This document shows, piece by piece, positions 11,893-26,775 of a DNA stretch of 64,000 nt. The notes beneath the pieces were generated by a model. The model had not been told where the DNA came from. It made no database searches and saw only the letters and a program-made list of their open reading frames with translations. The position numbers and the translations under genes were made by a program. This stretch comes from Deltaproteobacteria bacterium (GTDB taxonomy: Bacteria > Desulfobacterota > Syntrophobacteria > Syntrophobacterales > Syntrophobacteraceae). Each line of letters begins with the position of its first letter. Position 1 is the stretch's first letter. The stretch spans positions 1-64,000 of the forward strand of contig JAAYVE010000008.1 in assembly GCA_012517315.1 (NCBI GenBank), in the 5' to 3' direction.

Positions 11893-12075
11893 CAACAACT
11901 CCAAATCCACGGCGTTTTCCTTCATCTGGCTGGATCAAGTCCGGGAATTTGCACTTCCCTTCTCTTGCTAGGGATATCAACTTCTTCCCACCGCGGGGTG
12001 AGAGGCTGACACTACGGAGCAGACGTTTAGAGGATTCGAAGGGAGATTTCACCCAAAATGAAAGGAGAAAACGAC

Positions 12076-14844
12076 ATGAGATACTTTCCTCGTGAACTCA
12101 GACACGGGTCCGGAGCCATGATGACTCTGGATCCAACCCGGCTTTTGCTCGCATTCAAGGAAGCGATGGCCATTGAAAAGGTTACTGAGCAACTGAAAGA
12201 ACTCCGCCTCGTACTCGAGGATGCGCAGGACACGGAACGAGAGAAGCGCTCCCGTCCGTTCGACGTCGTCAATCACACGGACCGGCGCTTCTGGATTCGC
12301 TCACAGACAGGGCAGGCGATCGACCAGGAGCGCTTTGAAGGGATACAAAACAAGCTTGCGGAAGCCCTGGACTGGGTGGGGCCGGTGTATCGGCTGGCCG
12401 ACGTATCCGGAAGGGGTGGACTGCTGTGCCCTCTTCCCAATGTCCTTCTGCTGAGACCCGCCCCCCAGCTCAGCGAAAAGCATCAGAAAGAGCTCGAAAA
12501 GATGCTCAAGAGCTACGGGGGTCGGGAGGTCCGCGAGAAGTCCACCTATCTGGGTGAGTATCGTTATTATGCGTTATCGGACACAAAAGAGCGCAATGCA
12601 TACCGTCTGCTCGAGGTGCTGCTGAAGGAAAGAGCGCTGGTGAGCGAAGTGCATTTCGAGAACATGCCCATGGTGGTTCCCATCGCCTTATCACCTGACG
12701 ACACCTTTTTTCCTCAGCAATGGAGCATGACACGCATCCAGGCGGGCGGTGCGGGAACGACGGGTTGGGACATTTCCCCGGGAGCCCCCGGTATCGTGAT
12801 CTGTATCCTGGATACAGGTTGCGACTTAACGCACCCTGACCTCAACTTCGCGGCAGGAGCCGCAGGCCAGGGCATCAATCTCGGCACGATGATGCCCACC
12901 GGGGCCCCGGTGGGCAATGCAAACGTCATCGGGCACGGCACCTGCTGCGCCGGCATCGCTGCGGCTCGATTCAACAATGCGGCGGGTGTGGCGGGGGTCG
13001 CCGGAAATTGCAGCATCATGCCGGTAGCCTTTCAAAGCTGGACGGACGCCGAAGTCGCAGCTGGAATCAACTGGGCGGCGAACAACGGAGCGCATGTCAT
13101 CAGCATGAGCTTCCGTCAATACGCTCCTGGTGAAGGCTTCGCCCCCACGGGCTGGAATTTCGCAGTGATCGATCCGGCAATCACGAACGCGGTGAACGTG
13201 CGTGGCTGTGTGCTCATTGCGGCCACAGGTAATGAGGACACGGGCATAATCAACGGTTATCCGGCCCGGAACCCGCTTGTGATAGCGGTTGGGGGATCCG
13301 ACCAGGCGGATAATCGCAAAAGCCCGGCAAGCGCTGATGGAGAGTGCTGGGGAGCGAATTTCGGACCGGGGATTTCCGTCGTCGCCCCTTGTGTGCTCAA
13401 CCCCAGCACGGACATCCAGGGCAACGTCGGATACAACTCCAACAACGGCGGACCGCGCCTGGTAGCCTGTGTGAACTACCCCAGCTGCGGCGATGCGGCC
13501 GGTGAGTACTTCTTTCAATTCAACGGAACCTCATCGGCAACGCCCCATGTGGCAGGTCTTGCCGGTGCCATCCGCAGCCAGTATCCGGCCCTGACAAATC
13601 TTCAGGTACGTGACCTTATCGAGAGGGCAGCCGAAAAGGTAGGCGGCGTCTATGCCGATGTCCCCGGTTTTCCCAACGGCACCAGAAATGTCCAGATGGG
13701 ATATGGACGGATCAACATGTTCCGCTCTTTGGACCTCGCAGATGTCTTGATCAAAGACTGGCCAGGCGACGGCGGTGTCGAACCTTCCACCCCTCCGGGG
13801 GGCAATTTCTGGTCGTTTTCCGATATCGTCGTCCGCATCACCGACGATAACGTCTTTGATCCGGGTGATCCGAGCAAATCCAGCAACGTGGAACGCGGCC
13901 AGACGAATTACCTCTATATCCGTGTGACGAACAACGGTCCGAGGGATGCGAGAAACGTCGTGGTCAGCGCTCGCATAACGCCCTACGTGGGACTGGAATT
14001 CGTCTATCCGGCAGATTGGACGACGGTGGACGCAACCCACGTGAGCCCAACGCCGGTCAATGCATCCTTTGCGTCTATTCCATCGGGTGGTTCGGCCACG
14101 GCCAAATTCACCATTTCCTCGGTACAGGTTGAAACCCTGTGGGGATGGATCAGTGGAATGCACTGGCATCCCTGTATGTTGGCGATGGTGAACGCCGACA
14201 ACGACTACGCCTTTGCCACTTCCAGCACTGCGGGAGGGGGCCTCGTGTTGCGCCGCAACAACCTGGCGCAGCGGAACCTCTCGGTGATCGATGTCCTTGC
14301 CTCCGCTGCCGTCACTTTCCCTTTTTTGGCAGGAAATTCCCTCAACGCAGAACGCTCGCTGGAAATCTTGGTGGATCGGCGTCGCCTTCCCAAGACCATG
14401 CCGCTGCTTCTTGGGCTGGATGACGACAAAAGGGCATTTCCCCTCGTAGACTTGACACCGACGTTCATCCCGGAGGAACGTGAAGAAGGGGGTATTGTCT
14501 TTCTCGAACGCACACGGATCGAAACCGTGCTGGGTTGCTGCAGGGGCGTTTTGACACTGGAAAAGGGATCGCGCTTCGATTGCCTTCCCCCCACAGGGGT
14601 CGGCAAGATCAACGTCAAAGGCGGTGAAGTCATCCTCCGCAAAGGCAGGCGGTTTGTGGAGATTTGCAACGAAACCGCCTCCATTCGCTTGGAGAAACAG
14701 CCCCATCAACTGTACCCCCTCACTTTGCAGACTGTCATCCCCAACGATGCGGGTCAGGGCCAGGCCTTTCTGATCAGTGTCGCACAAAGAAATGAAAGGG
14801 AAGAAACAGTGGGTGGTGCCACGGTCGTTTACAATGTAAAGTGA
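12076..14844 (+). CDS. Subtilisin-like serine protease (S8) with C-terminal adhesion-like domain
   Basis: 922 residues. An N-terminal region of about 210 residues without a signal peptide or membrane helix precedes a complete S8 catalytic domain: aspartate in CILDTGCDLTHPDL (D246), histidine in GHGTCCAGIAA (H287), serine in NGTSSATPHVAGL (S486), with the oxyanion asparagine in ATGNED. After the protease come a CARDB-like Ig module (YLYIRVTNNGPRDARNVVVS, about 600-710) and a 200-residue tail I cannot place. Start 12076 is preferred over 12058 because AAAGGAG ends 8 bases before it. Cysteines are unusually frequent near the active site. The lack of a signal peptide suggests an intracellular enzyme or a non-Sec exit; the small exported protein upstream may be its partner. 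Confidence 0.88.
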   Translation: MRYFPRELRHGSGAMMTLDPTRLLLAFKEAMAIEKVTEQLKELRLVLEDAQDTEREKRSRPFDVVNHTDRRFWIRSQTGQAIDQERFEGIQNKLAEALDWVGPVYRLADVSGRGGLLCPLPNVLLLRPAPQLSEKHQKELEKMLKSYGGREVREKSTYLGEYRYYALSDTKERNAYRLLEVLLKERALVSEVHFENMPMVVPIALSPDDTFFPQQWSMTRIQAGGAGTTGWDISPGAPGIVICILDTGCDLTHPDLNFAAGAAGQGINLGTMMPTGAPVGNANVIGHGTCCAGIAAARFNNAAGVAGVAGNCSIMPVAFQSWTDAEVAAGINWAANNGAHVISMSFRQYAPGEGFAPTGWNFAVIDPAITNAVNVRGCVLIAATGNEDTGIINGYPARNPLVIAVGGSDQADNRKSPASADGECWGANFGPGISVVAPCVLNPSTDIQGNVGYNSNNGGPRLVACVNYPSCGDAAGEYFFQFNGTSSATPHVAGLAGAIRSQYPALTNLQVRDLIERAAEKVGGVYADVPGFPNGTRNVQMGYGRINMFRSLDLADVLIKDWPGDGGVEPSTPPGGNFWSFSDIVVRITDDNVFDPGDPSKSSNVERGQTNYLYIRVTNNGPRDARNVVVSARITPYVGLEFVYPADWTTVDATHVSPTPVNASFASIPSGGSATAKFTISSVQVETLWGWISGMHWHPCMLAMVNADNDYAFATSSTAGGGLVLRRNNLAQRNLSVIDVLASAAVTFPFLAGNSLNAERSLEILVDRRRLPKTMPLLLGLDDDKRAFPLVDLTPTFIPEEREEGGIVFLERTRIETVLGCCRGVLTLEKGSRFDCLPPTGVGKINVKGGEVILRKGRRFVEICNETASIRLEKQPHQLYPLTLQTVIPNDAGQGQAFLISVAQRNEREETVGGATVVYNVK

Positions 14845-19720: not shown

Positions 19721-20602
19721 CTACGCCAAAAGGGACGAAGCTTCGGGATCGTGGGCCCGGAAATTGGCCCTTGCACGGTCGATACTCGTGGTCGCGTAGC
19801 AGTACACACACCCTGCGGGGCACGAATCGTACATGCCGATGTCCTTGCTCACCGCACAGCCACAGCTCCTGCGCTGGCAAGGATCCTTTCCCCCTCTCAG
19901 GTCGAGTCCGAACACCCGTGAAATGAGTTCGTCGTCGACGCATTTTCCCGGCTTCAGGCCGTAGCGCTGCAAGTCCCGTTCATCAGCACAGCTGCGCGGC
20001 TCCATTCCGTTTTCCCGTGCGGTCTCCACGAGGGATCGCACAAGATCGCCGGCTCTTTCCTCATCCCAGGGGAGCAGCCGGATTCCTTCCCCGGCCAATT
20101 CTTCCAATCGCCTTCGGGCCTTGCGGTAGAGGTGAGCGAAACTCACTACCGACCGCGTGGTGGCACCCCGCAATTCCCCGGCGATGTGCCGGAAGGTTTT
20201 CTCGTGGAAGTCGTAATCCGTTACGCTGCTGAGAAAAATGGGATCATAGCGCCAGACGGTCCGCTCCCGCCCGATCCTCTCCGAGAGTTCCCGGAAATTC
20301 CTGGCGGCCGCAGCCATGGGGCGCGCTCCCGGATCGATCCGCCAGGGATTCCCCATCAGGGTGTAGAGGAAGTAGAAGCGGTAGCCCCTCTCCTCCAGTT
20401 CCGATAAGTGGGGCATGAGGGGGCCTGGGTTGCGGGTCCAGAAGACGATGACATCCACGTCTTCCGGTTTGAGGGAGACACGGGAGACCTGGGTAGGGTT
20501 GAAGGGGTTGGGAACCAGGCAGTGGCCGGCCCTGATGCGGTTCATGAACCACCGGGAATAGAAGGCGGGGATGTCCGTTCGTCGACTCGCGCTGATGATC
20601 AC
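19721..20602 (-). CDS. DUF1848 family protein
   Basis: 293 residues with the DUF1848 start IISASRRTDIPAFYS, the WTRNP block and a C-terminal cysteine cluster (CQRRSCGC, then DIGMYDSCPAGCVYCYA) that could bind an Fe-S cluster in the style of radical-SAM proteins, although the order is inverted (cysteines at the C-terminus). Function is unknown. Start is GTG 20602, which directly abuts the TAG stop of the upstream YdjM-like gene; GGAGAAGG lies about 10 bases upstream. Tight spacing suggests co-translation. Confidence 0.88.
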   Translation of the reverse strand: MIISASRRTDIPAFYSRWFMNRIRAGHCLVPNPFNPTQVSRVSLKPEDVDVIVFWTRNPGPLMPHLSELEERGYRFYFLYTLMGNPWRIDPGARPMAAAARNFRELSERIGRERTVWRYDPIFLSSVTDYDFHEKTFRHIAGELRGATTRSVVSFAHLYRKARRRLEELAGEGIRLLPWDEERAGDLVRSLVETARENGMEPRSCADERDLQRYGLKPGKCVDDELISRVFGLDLRGGKDPCQRRSCGCAVSKDIGMYDSCPAGCVYCYATTSIDRARANFRAHDPEASSLLA

Positions 20603-21160
20603 CTACGGAAACCTTCTCCACTTTCTCCGTGCCGCCCTGGTCATTGCGGAAAGGAGCAGCAGGCAAGCCGAAGGAAGCCAGACCCAGAAAAGCTCGCTTT
20701 GCATGACCAGCCAGCCCCGTCTGCTGAATAACCCTTGTATGCCGATGGGGGACACCTCGATGGGGGTCCATGGAAGGAAATATCGTTGGTTGTCGAAGGG
20801 TGCCAACAGGGCGATTCCAAGCCCTCCATCGGTCAGGGCATCCAACACTCCATGGCTGGCGGTGATGAAAAAGAAAAAAACCCAATGAAACAGGTCCCGC
20901 CGCGTGAACCCGTCCTCTCTCCTCAGGAGGGAGACGGCTGCGGCCCCCGCCAGGAGGAACGCAAAGGAGAGAGAATGAGAAAAACCTCTATGACCCAGCA
21001 CGTGTCGATACGGGATGCCCACGAGGAAAGCAAGAACATCGGCATCGGGAAGCATGGAGCAGATCGCTGCGGTCGCGCAAAAACGGGTTGGAGCGTTTGC
21101 CGGTGCAACCGCCTTCGCAGCACAGACGGCGATCAAGGCATGTGTGATGGTCGTCGGCAC
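20603..21160 (-). CDS. YdjM-like metal-dependent hydrolase, inner membrane
   Basis: 185-residue DUF457/YdjM family membrane protein. It starts PTTITHALIAVCAAKA, with the conserved THA and later GHRGFSHSLSFAFLL (family H-R-G-x-S-H-S metal motif) and four or so hydrophobic segments. E. coli YdjM is LexA-regulated, but no LexA site was identified here. GTG 21160 is chosen as start because GGGAGGTGAAGGA directly precedes it; the ATG further upstream has no such site. Stop touches the DUF1848 start. Confidence 0.85.
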   Translation of the reverse strand: MPTTITHALIAVCAAKAVAPANAPTRFCATAAICSMLPDADVLAFLVGIPYRHVLGHRGFSHSLSFAFLLAGAAAVSLLRREDGFTRRDLFHWVFFFFITASHGVLDALTDGGLGIALLAPFDNQRYFLPWTPIEVSPIGIQGLFSRRGWLVMQSELFWVWLPSACLLLLSAMTRAARRKWRRFP

Positions 21161-21253
21161 TCCTTCACCTCCCCCTGAGGATGCAGGCAAGCCTTCCTGT
21201 GGAACGGATTCCCTTACATACGGCGCTTCTCCTGGGCCCCTTCCGGAGAACTC

Positions 21254-21487: not shown

Positions 21488-24400
21488 CTAGCGCCTCACC
21501 TTTACCACGAAACCCGGGCTGCCGTAATGCACGTAATCGGCCCAGTCCACCGATTTGAGCTGCAGGACGCGCCTTCGCCCTTCCTGGAGCGCGTCCCCCA
21601 CGGAACTGCCGTTGACAAGGCCCTTGTAAAAGACCTGGGCAAACTGTTCGGCGGCGGTATCCCCCACAGGCCAGTAGGTTCCCACGTAATTGCCCACCCC
21701 TGCCCTCAGAAAAGCCTCGGCCAGGCCCACGTTGCGCTCCAGCCTCTGAGCGGTGGGTTCCCCGGCCGCCTCGCCGCCGATCGCATCAGCCCCCCGGACC
21801 CGCCCTGCTTCACAGGCGTTGAAGAAGACCAGAGCCGGAAGCTTCTCCAGGTGCACCAGGTCCCTCCCCGAAAGGACCTGCCGCCCGTGGCACAGAATCC
21901 CGCTGCGGGACCTCCTGACAGGGTCGAAAAACGCGTGTCCCGCGTAATGAATCACGTCGTAGTCCCCCGATCGAAAGCGGGCCCGCACGGCACTCCAAGT
22001 GGCTTCTACCCCGCGGAGTTCGTCCACCAGGAAGGCTGGGTCCCCACTCAGGAGCCCCTTGATCCGGTCCCCTTCCTTTTCGGCCCCCGGCAGGTCTCCC
22101 GTGGGATTGACGATGAGGAGCACCCGGAGGCGATCGGCAAGGCGGCGCTCCTCCAGCCACCCGGCCACGGAAAGGTCCTCGGCTTCGTACTTGCGGCTCA
22201 AACCCGCCGATGCAGCGGGTTGCCACCGGTCGATGCACAGGGTTTCCCATGGGATCCGCGAGGCCCGGGCATCGTGGATGACCACCAGATGCCGCTCCTG
22301 CATATTGGACAAGACCTTCCGCACCAACTGGGGCAGAACCAGGTCAGCCAGTTTTCGCCCGAAGGCGTCCAATCCGGTGAAATCGAACGATTCCTTTTCG
22401 ATTTGCTCGAGGTGTGCGTTGAGTTCCCTGCCTTTGACGTCCACCACGTCGGTGATGACCGTGGCCCTGCTCCCCGCGGTCAGGACGGAAGCGCGGAGGG
22501 CGAAATCGGCGTCGATGGCGGGGTTCGTCTCCTGGTCTCGCGTGTCCTCCATATCCCGCACCATGAGGTAGACGGGATCCTCGGGAAGACGGGGTGCCCT
22601 GCCGGGGAACACGGCAACCGGGGCAGGCATGGGGGGAAGCTCCCGCATCTCCACTGTCACCTCTAGGTCGTCGAACAGGGCAGTGGTCGTCAACCGCAGC
22701 AGTTCTGCGTGCATCTGGGCGAACCGCTCCGAGTCCAGTTCGCAGAGGGTGATGGAGCGCAGGCGGTTTTCCCGGTCCCCTTCCTGGAGACCTCGAAGGA
22801 ATCCCTGGAGCAGATTGGCCAGCACCACCCCCACCGGCATGCCGCTGCCTGTGCTGAGAAGAACGGTGGCGAACTCGTCCACCCTGGTCCGCGCAAGGGC
22901 CCGGGCTGTGTTCTCCGCCACGATTCTCAGGACCTCCTCGTTGAAGTCATCGTAGCTCCCCAAACCGCAAAACACGACCATGTCCGCTCCCATGCGGTAG
23001 CGGTTGGCGGGCATGATGAAAACCTCACCCACGTTGCCCCCGATCATGCGACGTTCCACGAAGTCCGTGACGACTCCCCCCAGTTGTTCGTCGATGGCCC
23101 TGGCCGCCCCGGAGGGAGCGACACCGCGAAACAATCCCAGCACGACGGCCCGTGTGTCCGCCTGTGTGACACTGCCGTGAGCCATCTGCAGGTCGAGGCG
23201 GCGCTGCCGCTTTCGGCCGACGACGATGGGTTCTCCCGTTACCTTGGCGAACTCCACAGCCGGCGCGGGAGGGACCGTTTCCCGGGCCCGGGCGGGGGGG
23301 GCCGCGAATTCACTCAGAATTTCCCGCACTTCGCGGGGGCTCACTTCGGCGCCCCGACGCCCCCCGAAGGGCACCTGCGGCAAGTCGTCGGGCCGCAATT
23401 CCCGAAGGGCCCCACGCCGGCCGCGAGTCCACGCGTCGGGAAGCACATCCGTCCGCCCCCTTTCCACCAAGTCGATGACCGCCCGAGCCACATCCCCGTT
23501 GTTGGGCAGGCTTCCGTGCTCCTCTTCCACGAAATAGGTCGTGACCCCTTCCAACTGGGCGAAGGCAAGGGGCACTGTCCCGTCCCCCTCGTTTGAGGTC
23601 GCGTAGACGAACGCTTCACCCTCTTTCCTCACGCTCACCACGGTTTCCTGGTTGACCCCGGCGATGAGAGCAAGACGGTCGTCCGGAGGGGCCAGGGAAT
23701 GGTGCATCCCGGGGGCGTCGGCCAGGAGGGCGTCGCGCGGACCCATGCCCGTTGCAGGCCAGTTGGCCGCGCTGTAAAGGTCCACTCCGGAGAATTTGTC
23801 CCGGGCCGGGAGCATCTGGTAGAGGCCGGGGAAGGTGTTGAAAATGAGGTTGACCAGTTCTTCCCGGCTGTTGGCCAGATCCACGGCGGCAACTTTGCGC
23901 ACCATGGAGTGCGTCCCCGAAAGGGCCTGGACCGGGGAAAAGGACCCGAAGTTGGGGGTGCCCAGCATGATGAGGCGACGCACCCTGGACGCTTCCCCCG
24001 TGTCCTTCAGATGCTTCAGGGCCGCCCGCGAAACAAGCCCTCCCATACTGTGAGAGACAAGGGTGAGGTCCTCGCGACCCGAATCCCTTCCCGTTTCCTT
24101 CCTGATTCGGGCGGCCAGTTCCGCCCCCGTTTCCGGAATCCCTTTGCGCCAGTCGAAGGGATGGAAGTCGGCGTCGAAACCCGCCTGTTTGAGGCGCAGC
24201 TTGAGCTTAAGGTAAGCGAGGAGAATCACGCCCACCGGCTGGACGTCCTTACGGCCGTCCACCAAGGAAAGCTCCCGAAGACGACCGACGACGATGTCCA
24301 CGGGATCGATCCAGATGGTGTCGTCGAAAAGAAACCGGGGTCTCCCCAGCTTGGAACCCATGATTCCCGGCAGGATCAGGACCCGCGGTCCTCCCCGAGT

Positions 24401-24649
24401 CCTGGCGGTTTGGGCCCGGGTGGCCAGGAAGCGCAGGTCCTCGTAGGCCTCCTCGCCGAAATACGTCTCCAGGAGGTCCCTGTGCTCCCCCGTGATGAGT
24501 GCCTCCTCCACCAGGTCGTCCCGGAGGGCATGACCGGTTCGCTTGTCCTCCGTCCGCATCTCGCGGGTATCTTGGGAAGCCCCCCCCGTCATGCCCCCGT
24601 TGCCCCTGCCCTCGCCGGAACCCTTCCGGCCGGTTTTCCTGACGGCCAT
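21488..24649 (-). CDS. LCAT-like hydrolase fused to macro/M17-N-like and CHAT protease domains
   Basis: 1053 residues, no signal peptide. Residues about 85-400 are an LCAT/PGAP1-like alpha/beta hydrolase: VLILPGIMGSKLG (oxyanion region), nucleophile in LVSHSMGGLVSRA (S201), aspartate in EGDGTVPL and histidine in EEEHGSLPNNGD, so the triad is complete. A middle part (about 480-660) with DLQMAHGSVTQADTRAVVLG and FIMPANRYRMGADMVVFCGL resembles the macro-like N-domain of M17 aminopeptidases. The C-terminus is a CHAT caspase-like protease: histidine in DVIHYAGHAFF (H905) and cysteine in VFFNACEAG (C946). Start 24649 has GGAGGAGGA just upstream. Family knowledge: CHAT proteases often act in stress or immune cascades. 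Target and trigger are unknown; the upstream GH13 gene is on the same strand 158 bases away. Confidence 0.85.
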   Translation of the reverse strand: MAVRKTGRKGSGEGRGNGGMTGGASQDTREMRTEDKRTGHALRDDLVEEALITGEHRDLLETYFGEEAYEDLRFLATRAQTARTRGGPRVLILPGIMGSKLGRPRFLFDDTIWIDPVDIVVGRLRELSLVDGRKDVQPVGVILLAYLKLKLRLKQAGFDADFHPFDWRKGIPETGAELAARIRKETGRDSGREDLTLVSHSMGGLVSRAALKHLKDTGEASRVRRLIMLGTPNFGSFSPVQALSGTHSMVRKVAAVDLANSREELVNLIFNTFPGLYQMLPARDKFSGVDLYSAANWPATGMGPRDALLADAPGMHHSLAPPDDRLALIAGVNQETVVSVRKEGEAFVYATSNEGDGTVPLAFAQLEGVTTYFVEEEHGSLPNNGDVARAVIDLVERGRTDVLPDAWTRGRRGALRELRPDDLPQVPFGGRRGAEVSPREVREILSEFAAPPARARETVPPAPAVEFAKVTGEPIVVGRKRQRRLDLQMAHGSVTQADTRAVVLGLFRGVAPSGAARAIDEQLGGVVTDFVERRMIGGNVGEVFIMPANRYRMGADMVVFCGLGSYDDFNEEVLRIVAENTARALARTRVDEFATVLLSTGSGMPVGVVLANLLQGFLRGLQEGDRENRLRSITLCELDSERFAQMHAELLRLTTTALFDDLEVTVEMRELPPMPAPVAVFPGRAPRLPEDPVYLMVRDMEDTRDQETNPAIDADFALRASVLTAGSRATVITDVVDVKGRELNAHLEQIEKESFDFTGLDAFGRKLADLVLPQLVRKVLSNMQERHLVVIHDARASRIPWETLCIDRWQPAASAGLSRKYEAEDLSVAGWLEERRLADRLRVLLIVNPTGDLPGAEKEGDRIKGLLSGDPAFLVDELRGVEATWSAVRARFRSGDYDVIHYAGHAFFDPVRRSRSGILCHGRQVLSGRDLVHLEKLPALVFFNACEAGRVRGADAIGGEAAGEPTAQRLERNVGLAEAFLRAGVGNYVGTYWPVGDTAAEQFAQVFYKGLVNGSSVGDALQEGRRRVLQLKSVDWADYVHYGSPGFVVKVRR

Positions 24650-24807
24650 GGCTTGTCCTCCTCCACCCATCGGTGTCCAAAAGGTCCAATTCCCTCACGC
24701 CGATCCTGCTGCCGCAAGACCTTTCCCTGTATCCCGCCGGACCAGCTGCGCCATCCCCTCGCATCTCCCGTTTCGAGAGATGAAGACACTCCATTCCACG
24801 GAAAAAC

Positions 24808-26775
24808 TCATGGGTGGTTGACGACCACCAGCACTTCCGAGGGCTGCACATGGCGCACCTCGACGAATGCCGTGCCGTCGGCCTTCCTTTGGACGGGCAA
24901 GGTCGCACCCATGGGGTGAGGAACACCGTCAGCCCCGGTGACCGCCTGAAGGGTGTTGCACACGACGGTGACCACGCTCCCCGGTGGGTTCAGCCGGGCG
25001 TCCACCACCACATCGGCCCCACGCTCCTCCGTCCCGTGAGCGTTCACTATACACAACGCCTCCTCGTCATCCAGGATGCGTGACCAGGCGACAATTTCCC
25101 CGGGGCCGTGGACGGCGAACTCACGGCCCAGAAAGGCGGTGGGCCGAAGATACTGGCGCCCCAGCCGAAGACTCCCGTATCGTCTCCGGACGGCGTTCAG
25201 CGCGGCCATGCCCAAATAGGTCGGGAAATCCCCGTCAAAGCAGTGGGCGCCAGCCGTCCCGAAAGGGCCGAACCCCGGCTCGTCCGGGTCCAGCCCACCG
25301 GGGTGCGGAAGCAACCCCGCACGTCCCTCCCGCCGGGGGTGCTCCGGCCCGAACATCGCTTCCCGCAAATAGCGGTCCGACCCCTTCCAGCCCGGCAGAT
25401 AATGCCGCTCGGAGGCTTCCGGCCCACCCAGCGCCTGCTCCGACCCATAATAGATGCACGATATTCCCAAGGTGAACAACTGCAGCGCCGTTGCCGCCAC
25501 GATCTGCCGGACCGACGCCGCCTCGCTGGAAAAGCGGATCTTTTCCCCGAACACGTGATCGTGATCGTCCAGTATGGACACGTGGTGCTTCCCCACGTTC
25601 CGGTGAGAACCCATCACAGCCCTGCCCGGGTCGAAGCCGTCGAAATAGGCCGCGGGGTGAACCAGTCCCTTGGCCACCCCGCTCAGGGCAAGGCGCATCT
25701 CCCCAATATCCAGGGCCGCGTTGAGGTTTGCACCCAGCACGTCCAGGTAGCGGTCCTGATGGGTGTCCCCCCCGGCCACTTCCCCCACCAGGAAGAAGTC
25801 GTGCTTCCCCAGCCGCGCCGCGAACTCCTTCACGGCCCCGCAGAAGTTCCTCCCCTGTTCGAAGGAGACGTGCTTGAGCGTGTCGATGCGGAACCCGTCA
25901 CAATCGGTGAGAGCGATCCAGTACTGGTAGCAGCGGGCGAGAAGGTTCAGCGTCCCGGGGTCCCGTTCCCCTTCCCCCGGCGGATCGAAATTGAAATCCC
26001 GCAGGTCCAGGAAATCGGAACGCTTGTGTTCCGCCCAGGGGTCCTCCAGGGGCCCCGCGCCCAGGCTGCCGCTGCCGGCCCGCGTGTAACACCCCGGGAC
26101 CTGGAACTCCGCCGGCCACACCCCGTCTTCGCCACCCCGGATGACTTCCAGGGCTTCGTCGTCCTTCCCGCGCCAGCGTATGGACGGGTAGTGCCCCGGC
26201 CACGGAAGAAAACCCGGCTGTCGTTGACGCTGACCGTCGACGAGGTAGTCGAAGTTGGAACCCGAGTGGTTGAAAATCACGTCGAGGATGACCCGGAGTC
26301 CCTTCGTATGGGCTGCGGCCACCAACTCCACCAGATCCCGTCGGGTGCCGAACCGTGGGTCCACATCGAGGAAATCCTGGATCCCGTAACCGTGATATGT
26401 GTTCAGGTGTCCCCGCTGCTTGAAGAGGGGGCCCACCCAGAGGGCGGTGACCCCAAGGTCCCTCAGGTAATCGAGCTTGGATGCAATGCCCCGGATGGTG
26501 CCGCCTTGCCAACGGGCCCCACCCGACCAGGCCCAGCGGTCCCAGCGCCACTGGGTTGCGCCGGCCGGCGCCGGTCGATGGGACTCCAGGTTCCGACGGT
26601 CCAGGAGTGGACGGCTTCCTTCGCCTCCGTCGCTAAACCGGTCCGGCAGGAGAAAATAGAGGACCTCGTTGCGCCAGTCCCCCGGCGAAACATGGTATTC
26701 CCCATCCACCGCCCGGGGCACGCCTTGAAGCCTTTCCGGCCGCTCCACGCTCAACATCTGTTCCGCAAACCGCAT
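24808..26775 (-). CDS. Alpha-amylase family (GH13) glycoside hydrolase
   Basis: 655 residues without a signal peptide, so probably cytoplasmic. The GH13 regions are in order: DVIFNH (region I, about 165-170), GFRIDTLKHV with nucleophile D298, FLVGEVAGG with acid/base E332, and SILDDHDH with D406. These support an active alpha-glucan hydrolase or transglycosidase, perhaps on glycogen or trehalose-type substrates; the exact specificity is open. ATG 26775 has AAAGGAG at an ideal distance. It precedes the LCAT/CHAT gene on the same strand. Confidence 0.92.
   Translation of the reverse strand: MRFAEQMLSVERPERLQGVPRAVDGEYHVSPGDWRNEVLYFLLPDRFSDGGEGSRPLLDRRNLESHRPAPAGATQWRWDRWAWSGGARWQGGTIRGIASKLDYLRDLGVTALWVGPLFKQRGHLNTYHGYGIQDFLDVDPRFGTRRDLVELVAAAHTKGLRVILDVIFNHSGSNFDYLVDGQRQRQPGFLPWPGHYPSIRWRGKDDEALEVIRGGEDGVWPAEFQVPGCYTRAGSGSLGAGPLEDPWAEHKRSDFLDLRDFNFDPPGEGERDPGTLNLLARCYQYWIALTDCDGFRIDTLKHVSFEQGRNFCGAVKEFAARLGKHDFFLVGEVAGGDTHQDRYLDVLGANLNAALDIGEMRLALSGVAKGLVHPAAYFDGFDPGRAVMGSHRNVGKHHVSILDDHDHVFGEKIRFSSEAASVRQIVAATALQLFTLGISCIYYGSEQALGGPEASERHYLPGWKGSDRYLREAMFGPEHPRREGRAGLLPHPGGLDPDEPGFGPFGTAGAHCFDGDFPTYLGMAALNAVRRRYGSLRLGRQYLRPTAFLGREFAVHGPGEIVAWSRILDDEEALCIVNAHGTEERGADVVVDARLNPPGSVVTVVCNTLQAVTGADGVPHPMGATLPVQRKADGTAFVEVRHVQPSEVLVVVNHP

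Follow-up and report, generated by a model that had tools for sequence, protein, structure and literature searches.

Parts of the protein described here are known from several prokaryotic systems. CHAT proteases are regulated by partner domains, and Craspase is switched by non-self RNA (PMC9729208). The macro domains of type II Thoeris (TM-macro) bind ADPR-type ligands (PMC11204291), and in type IV Thoeris (TIR plus caspase-like) the TIR products activate a caspase-like protease (PMC12847820). For α/β-hydrolases, a role as effectors acting on membrane lipids has been proposed in systems of bacterial conflict (PMC8195603). The window, a 64,000-nucleotide stretch of DNA analysed as a whole, encodes a protein that joins an LCAT-like lipase, a macro-fold domain and a CHAT protease in one chain. 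This architecture is new, and is not described in the parts consulted of the literature on CHAT, LCAT, macro and conflict proteins.

Gene structure, domains and active sites

The gene runs on the minus strand from 24649 to 21488 as a single open frame of 1053 codons; the plus strand of this interval holds stops and shadow frames only. The first-pass annotation had given the same coordinates, which stand, and had left the strand unstated. Translation from 24649 (MAVRK) is preferred to a longer alternative from 24670: GGAGGAGG stands ~7 nt before the former, and the homologue from the same genus begins at the equivalent position. That homologue is 83% identical to the window protein, with a dN/dS of ~0.12, and the window gene is under purifying selection in all three domains: their ratios are similar to one another, and those of the lead and linker exceed them. 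Coordinates of the individual features are collected in Table 1.

Table 1. Positions of the gene, its domains and its catalytic residues in the window
Feature	Positions	Strand	Remarks
Whole gene (LCAT-like, macro/M17_N-like, CHAT)	21488..24649	-	1053 aa; dN/dS 0.10/0.88 against same-genus homologue
GGAGGAGG, Shine-Dalgarno-like, preceding ATG 24649	24657..24664	-	direct reading
LCAT/lysosomal phospholipase A2-fold hydrolase, residues 86-400	23450..24394	-	Pfam LCAT and structural matches
Catalytic Ser201 (HSMGG)	24047..24049	-	kept in 33/34 homologues
Asp356 (GDGTVP)	23582..23584	-	kept in 34/34
His378 (EHGS)	23516..23518	-	kept in 34/34
Lipase/macro-like linker, residues 421-468, disordered from ~446	23246..23389	-	pLDDT and dN/dS
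Macro-fold domain, leucine-aminopeptidase N-domain type, residues 483-660	22670..23203	-	Pfam M17_N and structural matches
CHAT/separase-like protease, residues ~690-1053	21491..22582	-	Pfam CHAT and separately predicted model
CHAT His905	21935..21937	-	kept in 32/32
CHAT Cys946	21812..21814	-	kept in 32/32

The three domain identities proposed by the first-pass annotation, and their union in one 1053-residue protein, are borne out by profile searches and structure prediction; the middle and N-terminal parts did not turn out to be unrelated folds. In a Pfam scan with curated cut-offs, LCAT, Peptidase_M17_N and CHAT all score above theirs. The AlphaFold2 model of the whole protein was built from 14 sequences and has a mean pLDDT of 79 and a pTM of 0.54, so the folds of single domains are usable and their relative placement is not.

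The N-terminal domain matches Pfam LCAT (PF02450; E 3e-9, 37 bits against a cut-off of 21). Its model superimposes on the lysosomal phospholipase LPLA2 (4x97) with Z 28.4 and rmsd 3.3 over 302 aligned residues, followed by Tle4 (4r1d, Z 25.9), LCAT (25.9) and Legionella PlaB (19.4). By profile, fold and Ser-Asp-His triad this domain belongs to the LCAT/LPLA2 group, and it is predicted to hydrolyse acyl esters of phospholipid. It is followed by a linker in which pLDDT falls below 50 at residues 446–470, and dN/dS across residues 420–480 exceeds that of the three domains.

The middle domain matches Peptidase_M17_N (E 2e-11, 44.4 bits against a cut-off of 23.4). Its model aligns with leucine aminopeptidase (3h8f; Z 19.4, rmsd 2.2, 171 aligned) and with the macrodomain of macroH2A1.1 (1yd9; Z 18.5, rmsd 2.8, 175 aligned). 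Convincing matches to its sequence profile are leucine aminopeptidases only (PepA and other LAPs) with no classical macrodomains, and it is therefore best named an M17_N-type macro fold; the Pfam Macro family gave no match to the window protein at E up to 1, though M17_N did. The macro fold alone does not imply nucleotide binding. The C-terminal metallopeptidase domain of M17 is absent from the Pfam scan, and CHAT stands in its place.

The CHAT match (PF12770) is the strongest of the three (E 2.5e-33, 116 bits against a cut-off of 24). Modelled alone, the C-terminal region reaches a pTM of 0.82 and matches separase (5fc2; Z 25.9, 300 aligned) and Csx29 (8eey; Z 24.3). Both matches span the two halves of this region, the active caspase-like half and an N-terminal half of the kind present in separase, Csx29 and gingipain. 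The anti-sigma factor DdvA is a further structural match, and CHAT therefore need not mean immunity. Profile, fold and His-Cys dyad identify the region as a CHAT/separase-like protease of clan CD; proteolysis itself is predicted.

The triad and dyad residues are intact, exactly as first annotated. Their conservation was counted in 35 relatives, 34 with a lipase domain and 32 with CHAT. Routine absence of catalytic residues, which would have spoken against the annotation, is not seen: the sole exception is a long form (L106, 6617–12283) that reads HGMGG in place of the lipase Ser motif. This Ser-less copy adjoins caspase and TIR genes and is perhaps a regulatory or decoy copy.

Family members and their genomic neighbours

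A scan of the genome collection recovered eleven relatives, of which most align colinearly over the whole length. The tree resolves two clades, both with full support. The compact clade contains the window protein, its same-genus homologue, L032, L022, members from Gamma- and Alphaproteobacteria and one on a Rhizobium leguminosarum plasmid (45% identity). Members of the long clade (~1800 aa) share the lipase–macro–CHAT core and add a further hydrolase region, DUF7379, and in most cases TPR-S as well; TPR-S is present in L036, L037, L103 and L104, and the Pfam scan finds no TPR-S match in the window protein. Full-length matches are sparse, occurring in 6/395 genomes sampled from the phylum of the window organism, 1/385 genomes in the class of L029 and 12/369 in the class of L023, some of these being partial. 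Some members are carried on mobile plasmids, whose records annotate them merely as ‘CHAT domain-containing protein’. A phage origin was rejected because phage records and IMG/VR contigs hold no match to the family.

The domains also recombine. The lipase is fused to a trypsin-like protease in L044 and stands alone in L047 and L113, and L050 combines M17_N, CHAT and TPR-S without a lipase. The reading frame of the lipase-only L113 (8302–9603) contains one TGA according to the genome search, and the same genome (G1096) has a lipase plus CHAT protein on another contig. A separate operon, conserved around an adenylate-cyclase, CHAT, TPR and CsgG-like protein, was observed in L039, L041 and L042, with parts in L040; its further products include a FadL-type outer-membrane protein, unmatched in L040, and a CsgG-like/Ig-domain protein, which L040 shares. 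No PADLOC family or system model matches the window protein. Weak BovA and SAVED_CHAT matches of homologues fall inside the CHAT region and were rejected as evidence of membership.

A strong link to immunity is seen in the long clade. A TIR or caspase C14 gene lies within 2 kb of the long form in 6/13 genomes, against 0.09 expected from the number of TIR/C14 genes per genome (P ~7e-11 under random placement, a value that is optimistic because TIR genes cluster in islands; the excess is still large). Caspase C14 adjoins the long forms of G1163, G1098 and G036, and TIR genes adjoin those of G1163, G1098, G952, G928 and G403. A C11 clostripain adjoins long forms in two genomes (G008 and G080); those preceding L036 and L035 are 63–64% identical to the one beside compact L022. 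Other neighbours, found beside plasmid-borne members, are nSTAND1 (L049), TIR-nSTAND1-WD40 (L050) and type I restriction–modification genes (L046). No such neighbour accompanies the long forms of G895, G830, G1175, G1188 and G1126. On Paracoccus plasmids, two ~1090-aa proteins with 48% mutual identity are encoded directly upstream of long forms (L045, 4134–7418; L048, 3352–6597); they have no clear domain, with a weak solute-binding match in one.

For the compact clade, to which the window copy belongs, the link is indirect. In L022 a C11 clostripain lies 48 nt upstream and shares 63% identity with the one preceding long form L036; the Rhizobium member adjoins a SIR2-pYEATS gene and a nuclease, and L029 an M64 peptidase. 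No such immune or protease gene was found adjoining the remaining compact copies, the window's included. Most are solitary among ordinary genes: LysR and copper-chaperone genes in Gammaproteobacteria and HSP20 in L032. A 450-aa gene once considered the gammaproteobacterial neighbour was rejected as a shadow frame, the true neighbours being LysR and the copper chaperone.

Two companions suggested by the first-pass annotation, a GH13 gene and a 30-residue membrane protein, proved to be chance neighbours when homologous loci were surveyed. The GH13 gene adjoins the window gene and no other homologue, the same genus included. The membrane ORF is next door in the window and is not beside the gene in the same-genus genome; no such ORF was seen downstream of the gene in L021, L022 or L023, nor in the portion of L032 that was available. 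The GH13 protein (24808–26775, minus strand) matches PADLOC C3a214 (GlgB) at E 2.6e-113, probably library by-catch. At 19721–21190, on the minus strand, a DUF1848 protein and an adjacent YdjM-type membrane protein are encoded; the former matches PADLOC RTasDUF1848 at 9.5e-41, and no reverse transcriptase was noticed adjacent. On the plus strand, 12058–14844 encodes a 928-aa S8 subtilase that has a DUF11-like region and lacks an obvious signal peptide; it matches PADLOC ‘subtilase’ at 1.8e-12 and has no homologue in the loci of other family members.

Elsewhere in the window genome, other contigs contain two more CHAT ORFs, one C14, one C11 and three TIR matches, the TIR genes lying on contig C28. 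No TIR gene is adjacent to the window gene in the operon arrangement of Thoeris. Dependence of the compact form on TIR was rejected because 5/7 genomes carrying the compact form lack a TIR_2 match, and the genome's own clostripain was rejected as a partner because it is only 27–35% like the operon-linked one and sits on a different contig.

Proposed function

The reading we prefer, at a probability of about one half, is that the window protein is a soluble, cytosolic, protease-gated phospholipase effector of the bacterial conflict or cell-death type. The CHAT protease would stay switched off in the absence of a trigger, which plausibly acts by way of the macro-like domain, through its ligand or a partner. 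On activation, the protease may cleave a target, either another protein or a candidate site in its own disordered linker (~421–468). The attached LCAT/LPLA2-type hydrolase would then be released onto the cell's own membrane phospholipid, and the cell would be killed or arrested. Since its longer cousins often adjoin immune or cell-death genes, the protein probably works as a self-contained effector in cell death or phage defence. The first-pass annotation had raised the idea of a self-contained effector; it fits the family, with TIR, C14, nSTAND1 and C11 genes beside long forms, C11 beside one compact form and carriage on plasmids, but no defence gene neighbours the window copy. A defence role for this copy is thus inferred from its cousins, because compact forms are mostly solitary and no immune neighbour is present here. 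In favour of the effector reading are the folds and conserved active sites, the purifying selection, the sparse occurrence, the plasmids that carry some members, the neighbours of the long forms and the lipase–trypsin-like fusion. Against it stand the lack of an immune or protease neighbour for the window copy, of TPR-S in the compact form and of any PADLOC match, and the loss of the catalytic Ser in L106 although that copy lies beside caspase and TIR genes.

The solitary setting of the compact copies, among housekeeping genes such as LysR, copper-chaperone and HSP20, would also suit a housekeeping or stress enzyme with no role in defence. It might, for instance, be a hydrolase that remodels envelope lipids or acyl esters and whose level or activity is controlled by its own CHAT domain. 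Strong purifying selection and preserved gammaproteobacterial gene order suggest vertical inheritance, and the resemblance of DdvA to the CHAT part points the same way. This explanation is possible but rather unlikely, as it sits poorly with the sparse distribution, with the plasmids that carry some members and with the strong TIR/caspase association of the sister clade. If instead the lipase fold served for binding or docking and the output were the cutting of a partner protein, the Ser-less L106 and the lipase-less L050 would be accommodated; near-complete retention of Ser, Asp and His, the lipase-only relatives (L113 and L047) and the lipase–trypsin fusion (L044) make such protease-only signalling improbable.

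The likeness of the lipase part to the T6SS effector Tle4 and to PlaB raises the thought of a toxin secreted or injected into other cells. We regard this as very unlikely: reading the protein reveals no evident signal peptide or transmembrane segment, neither a T6SS marker nor an immunity gene was seen adjacent, and the genes that neighbour its cousins (TIR, caspase and STAND) are intracellular in kind. The fusion of a macro-like domain with CHAT, next to TIR genes, suggests Thoeris logic packed into one chain. The middle domain would then be a receptor for a nucleotide-derived, ADP-ribose-like immune signal that switches on CHAT and then the phospholipase, the signal coming from TIR partners where present and from another enzyme in TIR-less compact genomes. 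We hold this proposal, taken as a whole, to be doubtful at best; the M17_N type of the domain and the five compact-form genomes without a TIR_2 match speak against it.

Comparison with known systems

The present analysis names lipase–macro–CHAT as a conserved architecture, ties it, by way of the longer cousins, to genes of the TIR and caspase kinds and supplies exact residues for probing the protease-gated lipase idea. With those cousins (DUF7379, LCAT and CHAT, usually with TPR-S) the window form shares the core at ~25% identity; it lacks their N-terminal DUF7379 region and C-terminal TPR-S region. Relative to LCAT/LPLA2, Tle4 and PlaB, which have the same fold and triad, the window lipase differs in belonging to a three-domain protein with a protease. 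Leucine aminopeptidase (M17) offers the closest sequence and fold to the middle domain through its N-domain, but the M17 catalytic domain is missing and CHAT follows instead.

Csx29 of Craspase (TPR-CHAT, type III-E CRISPR) has a separase-like CHAT with the same His-Cys dyad, whereas the window protein has neither a gRAMP partner nor a TPR arm and unites CHAT with lipase and macro-like domains in a single chain. SAVED-CHAT (8tl0; Z 20.0 over 180 residues) likewise fuses CHAT to a different N-terminal domain; there that domain is a ligand sensor, and the window protein has a macro-like domain instead, plus a lipase. No CBASS or CRISPR genes were noticed beside the window gene. Type II and type IV Thoeris resemble the family in using a macro domain or a caspase-like protease as effector parts, and TIR genes lie beside several long forms; the window copy differs in having no adjacent TIR, an M17_N-type domain, and macro-like, protease and lipase parts in one chain. 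If protease and then lipase do act within that chain, the protein would be a bacterial counterpart of gasdermin-like, protease-gated membrane killing, with an enzyme replacing the pore.
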